This document shows, one piece after another, positions 33,401-36,400 of a stretch of 64,000 nt of DNA. The number at the start of each line of letters is the position of its first letter. Within the stretch, counting starts at the first letter, position 1. The position numbers and the translations under genes are program-made. This DNA comes from Acholoe squamosa (lineage: Eukaryota; Annelida; Polychaeta; Phyllodocida; Polynoidae): contig OX439036.1 in NCBI GenBank assembly GCA_949317995.1, positions 25,372,854 through 25,436,853 of the forward strand, in the 5' to 3' direction. Under the pieces are notes generated by a model. The model searched no databases. It saw only the letters and a program-made list of their open reading frames with translations, and was not told the origin of the DNA.

Positions 33401-36400
33401 AATGGCAGAGCCCTGCATGTATGCAGGTACAAGAGACCAACAAGATGGGGCAAAAACTGCCCTTGAGCGACTTTAAAATGCCCTCTCTTCTATCCTTACA
33501 GAAATAAGACTGGGCCCTTGGTTTTTAAGGTCCTAGACGCTATATATATGCCTCACTTTCCTAAAGGATTATCAGTTGTTTTATTCATAAAACAAGTGAG
33601 TGAGTAATAGATGTTTAACGCCATTCATTAAACAAGAAACATGTAATTCCTCAGTCTAATTGGAAACAGGGCGGTAAAACATTGGACCACTACATTAGTG
33701 CAGTGACGGGTGGCTTCTTGTAGTTGTGTGAGCTGCTCAGTGATTAACGTTGTATGGCACCTACAGACTCCATCCTCCATACTGAGTAGCTCGGCCCTTT
33801 ACTGTGAGTGACGGCGTATGAGTTGTGAATATCACCCATCTGCTCCTTCTGACAGGACACTCTAGGTACCAGGACCGAGGTGGGCCACATTGACAGGGTA
33901 ACTCTATGCATAAGTCTGAGCAGTTAATAAGAAAAGATACCCTATGTGCGGGTGCACAAATCAACTTTTCTACTAGCTGCTCACAATGGAAACAAGTCAC
34001 TGTGTGGGATCATGAGAGCAGCTCAGCTGATACGGTAACTGGGCCTGTATACGGCTGGTTGTGATTAATGCTGATATAAGTATAAACTGCTGAAAACGAA
34101 TCTGATATACATTTTATGAGTACAAAAATGTGGTAAACGGATAATGTGTAAAAAGGCTTATACCAGGTATATTTACTTACCTTGATGTTCTGCTGTTGTC
34201 CTGAGTTTTATTGTAGACACCTACCTGTAGAGCTGAGTTCTCCCAAGTTGGTGTGGTTATTGTGTTACTTACCAGTCAACAGAAGCTTAACGTGCAATTA
34301 AATAGAGCTACAGTGTACATAGACCTAACAGCCATTTTGGTTATTTTCACACAACACAGTTTTGTTAAAAACTACATGTGAGACTACACACTCATGCAAA
34401 TTACTTATTTATACTAGAGGTTTGCAATAGCCACACATATAGAGGCCAGTATTCGTATTATTTCCTGCTTGCAACAAGCCTTTGGCAAATTTCAAAGTGG
34501 TGCAAGATCCTTTGGATCTGTCAACTTGCAATTCGTGTGTTTCATAAAATTTGAAGGATAAAAAAAACACAGAAGAAAATATGGTGCAGCGAGGTTCATC
34601 CAATCTGCGCATCTCTCTGTATGAGATATGTTCATGCACAGCCTTTTAAGGCATCTCACAGAATCGTAAAAAAGGGTGTCATCCTCTTTTCTTTCATGGC
34701 AGTAGTTGTGAAGACTAATAATATTGCATGTACAGAGTGGCATCATGCTTGTATGATGATCTGCATCTTATCAGTTTCCTATTATCGTACTGCTTACCTA
34801 TCCACAAAGGCCTGGGCTAGGAAATAATCTTCGGCTAGAGTGAGGGCGAAAGCCTTGAGGCCGCCTGCGTTGTCTATGACCGATTTACGGAACAGAAACG
34901 ACATGCCCGTCATACAGTTGATGCCGTGTAAGTCGGCATTCAGATACATCTTGGAATTATGCCCAGCAAAGTATATCTGTAATGAACCAATGGTACAGCG
35001 TGTCTTCTGCACCTTTGCAGTTTGGTGTCAAGTTTTATAAAAAAAGATAGCGGCAACAGTGAGCAAGGCGTGCAGGTGGATTCTATGGGTTAGAGTGTCA
35101 ATCAAAGTGCGCGTGCTGGGGGTTAGTGTGGGGGTAAAAGAGGCAAAAAATGGAAAAGATACAAAACCACAACTCCTAATGTTTGTACATATATGTCACA
35201 ACACCCTGGGGGGAAAGACGGGCGGCAGGCAGTTGGGACTTGTTGGTTGTGTGCTGCAGGGAAATGGATAGGGAGAGCCAAGCAAACCATACTCTCTCGT
35301 GATAGTGGCAAAGTATAAATAAACAGGCTTTCAAGAAAGTGGCTCGCCAGTTGAGCATAGTCGATGCTAGAGGAACCAGAGAGAAAATAAAAGAGTATGG
35401 CGGTGCAGGGCCAGCCTCCGTTCTTCCTCCCCATGGGGATTCCCTGTCGCAGCGACAACAAACAATTCCCACCATGACTCCACAGGGATCACTCACTATA
35501 CATATCTTACCGATCTAAAATAGCTTGAGCTAGGATAAAGTCTTCGGACAAGTATTGGCCGAAAACGCGGAGGCCCCCGGCCTCTTCTAATATATCTTTC
35601 CGGACTAGACAAGACATTCCCGTTGTAGTATTCAGGCCGATCAAATCGGCAAAAAGGTAAATTTTGGCAAACCGGGTACCAAAGTACACCTGAAAATACA
35701 AAAGGCGGACAAAACATTTTGAATTTGGACTATACCTGTTCATGGTAGGGTAGGCTGGTGACCCTTTGTATAAATATGGACTATTCTTGATAGGAATTGA
35801 CCATATACCGCAAAACAAATACAGCAACGCAGTTTGCCAACGCACACATGCCAAAGATACGGAGTGAAAGATAACTAATCCAATAATAACGTAAGCATTT
35901 TAAGCCCACTTTATATCCGAACTGACCTTAAAACTTAGAGGTATTTTGGATCATAGGGTATTTTAATTTACAGGTATAAAAAAATACAGGTATCAAGGAT
36001 CATAGCGAATTGGTGACGTTCACTTGGGTAGATAACTATCTGGCTTTGTCTATGGCATACATGAAAGGACCTTGCCATGATCACCCTACTTACTTTTGAG
36101 AAATCTAAGGACGATTTTGCTGAAGAGTAGGAATTTGCAATGGACATATTATAAAGTACTTATGGTAGGCTTTCACAGAAACAAAGGAAAACACCTAAAA
36201 CAATGGATCTAAAAAGTCCATGTAATTCCTTCGATTTTCATTGATTGGTATTGTGCCAATGGGTAGGTACTTATCTATAGGACTTATATAGTTTTTTTAT
36301 ATATATTGCTATGTCCTTATTTAAAACCACCTTATTCTCCCAAATATCTGTTTGCTATCTTTCTCTTTTCTTTATCCAAGTTAATAAATGGAGTAATTTG

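Follow-up and report, generated by a model that had tools for sequence, protein, structure and literature searches.

We report here a gene for a ceramide glucosyltransferase (UGCG, family GT21) in which one catalytic exon is present twice. The gene lies on the minus strand of the 64-kb stretch of DNA analysed (hereafter, the window), whose gene content points to an animal. It is likely, in our judgement, that this is one UGCG gene whose exon 6 was duplicated in tandem long ago and that every mRNA carries one of the two copies, 6a or 6b. These are probably mutually exclusive exons, with one version of the enzyme for each copy used. The actual use of both copies is suggested by the constraint on the exons and by their anatomy in a single sequence; their exclusivity and a difference in function between their products are inferred.

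Gene structure and the exon 6 pair

The coding exons and the introns around the pair are listed in Table 1; the numbering follows the human gene, exon 6 being the exon with residue 195 (PMC3912166). Exons 1–2 were not found anywhere in the 64-kb window, and the gene is therefore incomplete in it. All residues of the catalytic motif were present: the D of IDPA in exon 3 (which we take to be the region of the first catalytic Asp), the D of SDSG in exon 4 (presumably the second catalytic Asp), an E-D pair in both 6a and 6b, and RMIRW. In ceramide glucosyltransferases (UGCG, GT21) this motif consists of D, D, D and (Q/R)xxRW.

Table 1. Exons of the UGCG gene in the window and the introns adjoining exon 6b (positions of the window)
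Feature	Position	Strand	Remarks
Exon 3	59088-58986	-	103 nt; common to both isoforms
Exon 4	39227-39126	-	102 nt; common to both isoforms
Exon 5	36848-36736	-	113 nt; common to both isoforms
Exon 6a	35689-35511	-	179 nt; enters in phase 0, leaves after two bases of an Arg codon
Intron between 6a and 6b	34977..35510	-	534 nt; GT-AG
Exon 6b, alternative copy	34976-34798	-	179 nt; phases as in 6a
Intron after exon 6b	12097..34797	-	22.7 kb
Exon 7	12096-12010	-	87 nt; common to both isoforms; start of RMIRW motif
Exon 8	9934-9745	-	190 nt; common to both isoforms
Exon 9, last coding, with stop codon	9494-9288	-	common to both isoforms

A preliminary description of this DNA had proposed that two neighbouring minus-strand exons encode the same UGCG segment, including a catalytic Asp, and share about half of their residues, and both points were borne out. 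Residues 187–245 of a solved ceramide glucosyltransferase (PDB 26qf) were matched by 6a with 60.8 bits and by 6b with 54.8 bits, and the catalytic Glu235-Asp236 is kept in both. With the Pfam model Glyco_transf_21 (cut-off 21.7) the scores were 46.8 bits for 6a and 53.2 bits for 6b. In a gap-free alignment to each other (BLASTP E 3e-21), the copies have 30 of 59 residues in common; they differ at 68 of 179 bases. The equal lengths, the phases of entry and exit and the intact GT-AG splice sites claimed for them were likewise confirmed. The borders (marked by a slash) read ...tgtattttcag/GTGTAC ... GATCG/gtaaga for 6a and ...gttcattacag/ATATAC ... GATAG/gtaagc for 6b, and the first base of exon 7, the A at 12096, completes the split codon as CG/A or AG/A, i.e. 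Arg both ways. It should be noted that such geometry alone is not rare, as the minus strand of the window has 232 AG-179 nt-GT frames and 14 of them are open in phase 0; chance is excluded by the homology instead.

Combining either copy alone with the six other exons yields a reading frame that stays open for 326 residues. Both of the resulting isoforms were aligned to residues 81–391 of 26qf without gaps, over 311 residues (E 1e-112 and 8e-111). The transfer of glucose to ceramide is the predicted activity. The isoforms are identical in all other residues encoded in the window and differ at 29 of the 59 positions of exon 6. Inclusion or skipping of both copies had been expected to shift the frame, and premature stops do follow. 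With codons counted from exon 3, the first stop is codon 178 of 386 when 6a and 6b are used together and codon 138 of 267 when neither is; these stops precede the last exon junction by 419 and 181 nt, respectively.

Several other features were observed in and around the gene. A reading frame without introns, encoding an axonemal dynein light chain of the p28/DNALI1 type (27111-27911, minus strand; Pfam Ax_dynein_light 257 bits, PDB 8j07 E 7.8e-81), lies within the 22.7-kb intron of UGCG in the orientation of the gene itself, and is possibly a retrocopy. The greater part of the intron separating exon 7 from exon 8 is occupied by a 43-bp minisatellite (9964-11687; 40 copies, 91% matches), whose consensus on the gene strand includes an acceptor-like TTTAG. 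The intron after exon 4 contains, at 38929-38971 (minus strand), a short-looped inverted repeat of 18 nt that looks perfect by eye. Past the 3' end of UGCG, cytochrome P450 exons were detected on the opposite strand (661-1562, plus; Pfam p450 30.2 and 45.5 bits).

Selective constraint on the two copies

Identity to the vertebrate enzyme amounts to 31/59 residues for 6a and 30/59 for 6b, next to 62/106 for exons 3–5 and 68/146 for exons 7–9. By these counts the divergence of the two copies from the vertebrate enzyme is similar to that of the other exons, and neither copy is ahead of the gene as a whole. Neutral decay was simulated in 20,000 runs from 6a to the observed nucleotide identity, with all change placed on one copy and with equal base rates. 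At least 30 of the 59 residues were kept in 0.02% of the runs; 13% stayed open, and 2.1% were open with both splice dinucleotides intact. Selection on both copies is well supported by this comparison of sequences.

Constraint was compared across a single animal genome, a single vertebrate chain and three relatives from bacteria. These three were the only relatives obtained from a search of genome contigs, being the 3 confirmed among 187 pattern matches. A search of viral contigs with 6b produced 33 pattern matches, none of them a homologue, and nothing was found in Rfam at gathering scores. Eight columns of the segment are invariant in the three bacterial relatives and the vertebrate enzyme, and 6a and 6b both retain five of them (G210, G224, G225, E235 and D236). 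The remaining three are departed from, T191 being G in 6b, A234 being S in 6a and K241 being Q in both. Furthermore, Arg195 is replaced by Lys in 6a and 6b, and His193 is missing from both (Phe in 6a, Asn in 6b). Arg195 is reported to be required for the activity of the human enzyme and is encoded on exon 6 of the human gene (PMC3912166). The Arg195 replacement, the lost His193 and the lost invariant columns count against function.

One copy, more likely 6b with its weaker acceptor, could have become a relic that splicing now passes over, in which case the gene makes one enzyme. Among the eight acceptors scored over 22 bases, the pyrimidine tract of 6b is indeed the poorest, with 13 pyrimidines (6a has 18, the others between 14 and 18); like exon 9, 6b is preceded by an AG-free zone of 25 nt, and it has G at the otherwise invariant Thr191. 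However, the tracts of exons 3, 7, 4 and 8 are nearly as poor (14, 14, 15 and 15 of 22), 6b is as near to the vertebrate enzyme as 6a and exceeds it in Pfam score, and neutral decay to the same distance almost never keeps so many residues. We therefore regard a relic as improbable.

Proposed choice between the copies at splicing

Several features fit mutual exclusivity: the copies are equal in length and phase, both are open, both are compatible with exon 7, both appear constrained, the frame shifts if both or neither are included, and exon 6 was the only UGCG exon found duplicated in the window. If the copies are mutually exclusive, each mature mRNA would carry 6a or 6b and two full-length enzymes would result. 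Mis-spliced mRNAs with both copies or neither would be removed by nonsense-mediated decay, which may act as a backstop. By the usual 50-nt rule, such decay is expected where a stop lies more than 50 nt before the last junction.

The structural devices known to enforce exclusivity were looked for. Steric interference was taken as a distance from donor to branch point under about 50 nt, and spliceosome incompatibility as AT-AC or U12 sites. The intron between the copies is 534 nt long, with ordinary GT-AG borders and no U12-type donor, and the AG-free zone before 6b spans 25 nt; neither a steric block, nor a distant branch point as judged from the AG-free zone, nor a U2/U12 mismatch was seen. 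An intron of 534 nt is long enough for normal splicing. As none of these devices was seen, the choice would be expected to be regulated by splicing factors acting on the two acceptor sites. That such factors choose between the acceptors, 6b having the weaker tract, is a guess.

Base pairing between the introns was also considered. The pairing of intron 5 with intron 6 (-51.9) was ordinary against six whole-intron shuffles. Two pairings, each the best of hundreds of pairs, went beyond all six: that of intron 6 with the downstream intron (-83.1; z -2.4 against 300 same-window shuffles) and that of intron 5 with the downstream intron (-60.9; z -3.1, with 1 of 300 shuffles as low). A second window of intron 5 gave z -0.9, and in a scan of the entire downstream intron 4 of 2639 window pairs fell below -83.1. 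Introns 5 and 6 have their best partner in the same stretch (33298-33477, minus strand), as would be the case for a docking site; given the number of windows tried, this is not significant. The stretch is G+C-richer and lies 1.3–1.5 kb past exon 6b. A repeat search returned only arms of 27–30 nt with 70% complementarity, and blastn found no inverted copies between the introns around the pair.

Another possible explanation is that both copies are used and that the exclusivity does not arise at splicing: joint inclusion or joint skipping would yield a frame-shifted mRNA that is destroyed, and the pair would serve as an on/off switch of expression in the style of a poison exon. The stops of both abnormal forms, which precede the last junction by far more than 50 nt, are consistent with such a switch, and an intron of this length would permit 6a to be joined to 6b. 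A poison exon need not retain enzyme sequence, yet both copies look constrained as protein, and we give this explanation little credence. Regulated inclusion of one copy per mRNA is preferred.

Age of the duplication, known systems and predicted effects

The silent sites of the pair look saturated. Codons of identical residues agree in 12 of 29 cases (one Met pair left out), where 11.25 would be expected from random synonymous choice, and the dN and dS values for 6a against 6b are 0.39 and 1.30 (NG86). Within 300 nt on each side of the copies no intron similarity was found, the score upstream being reached by 62 of 200 shuffles and that downstream by 160 of 200. A search of the 64-kb window with the exon peptides (E up to 1) revealed no other duplicated UGCG exon, the remaining matches having E values of 0.37 to 0.96. 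One further match, from another search (E 0.008; 22490-22696, plus strand), has 27% identity, contains a stop codon and runs across the border of exons 6 and 7; it was missed by the exon 6 and exon 7 peptides (E up to 1), and its candidacy as an extra piece of UGCG was rejected as a chance match.

A separately assembled allele, a misassembly or an exon of a second, partial UGCG gene can be set aside as very unlikely origins of the second copy, since the copies differ at 49% of residues, have saturated synonymous codons, lie among unrelated introns and join exons 5 and 7 in the correct phases, and no second copy of any exon except 6 was found in the window. The data fit an old duplication of the exon and selection on both copies, rather than an allele or a dead relic. 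The sharing of residues is star-like: 9 positions are common to 6a and the vertebrate enzyme only, 8 to 6b and the vertebrate enzyme only, 8 to 6a and 6b only and 22 to all three, and 12 to none, a pattern that points to neither copy as the ancestral one and places the duplication neither before nor after the split from vertebrates.

Tandem exon duplication as such is known and common, having been estimated in a 2002 study to affect about 10% of animal genes (cited in PMC9013439). Among established systems, exons 4a/4b of OGDH (2-oxoglutarate dehydrogenase E1) resemble the UGCG pair as an ancient exon duplication in a core metabolic enzyme; these mutually exclusive copies tune Ca2+ sensitivity (PMC7969005). 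Their intervening intron is over 500 nt long in early chordates and 118–131 nt in birds and mammals, and human OGDH enforces the choice through distant branch points located 25–41 nt past the first donor (PMC7969005). UGCG is unlike human OGDH in this respect, with its 534-nt intron and an AG-free zone before 6b of only 25 nt. Exons 9/10 of PKM (pyruvate kinase M), with enhancer elements within exon 10 (PMC3498831), are mutually exclusive, as the UGCG exons are candidates to be, and belong to another metabolic enzyme.

In the survey of human mutually exclusive clusters by Hatje et al. 2017 (PMC5740500), candidates were alike in sequence and reading frame. Exon length was not divisible by three in 377 (60%) of the 629 clusters, so that joint use breaks the frame, and the frame-shift backstop of 6a/6b is the same as in those clusters. 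Potential steric interference was recorded in only 57 (9%) and U2/U12 incompatibility in five cases (PMC5740500). UGCG has 0 occurrences in the main text of that survey, to which our search of it was confined. The human UGCG exon 6 holds the Arg195 codon, within the segment encoded by 6a and 6b, and in the passages of PMC3912166 consulted a single exon 6 is named, as opposed to the two copies found here.

The preliminary description knew of no alternative catalytic exon in UGCG, and this is consistent with the open full-text literature, where no report of mutually exclusive exons in UGCG, nor of two catalytic isoforms, appeared among the matches listed. For Apis cerana UGCG, the part of PMC11677483 cited describes alternative polyadenylation, not mutually exclusive exons. 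It is quite possible that a second UGCG isoform is present in databases without having been reported.

Residues of the pocket or in contact with inhibitors, identified largely by docking and simulation, include His193, Tyr197, Cys207, Val208, Gly210, Glu235 and Asp236, of which His193 is cited as critical for inhibitor binding (PMC11900012). At positions 193/197/207/208/210/235/236, the residues are F, Y, T, T, G, E, D in 6a and N, Y, C, M, G, E, D in 6b. Both copies thus retain the catalytic pair and diverge along the rim of the pocket. Because they differ at residues 190–194 and 207–208 around the pocket, the most likely effect of the swap, and a fair inference, would be a change in kinetics, in response to inhibitors or in preference for ceramide or UDP-sugar, in different tissues. 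More tentatively, and with less confidence than we attach to the duplication itself, one UGCG gene may yield two ceramide glycosyltransferases with different pockets, differing in choice of ceramide or UDP-sugar or in sensitivity to inhibitors, and producing tissue-specific glycolipids. The product of UGCG, glucosylceramide, is the precursor of complex glycolipids, and the enzyme is a drug target. The swapped segment contains the regions of residues 190–194 and 207–208 (with His193 and Cys207 in the vertebrate enzyme), and if the reading is true, tissue-specific glycolipids would come from a single gene. A long-kept natural alternative to the Asp236 segment would be, in effect, a mutagenesis experiment carried out by evolution on the pocket for ceramide and inhibitors, covering 29 positions.
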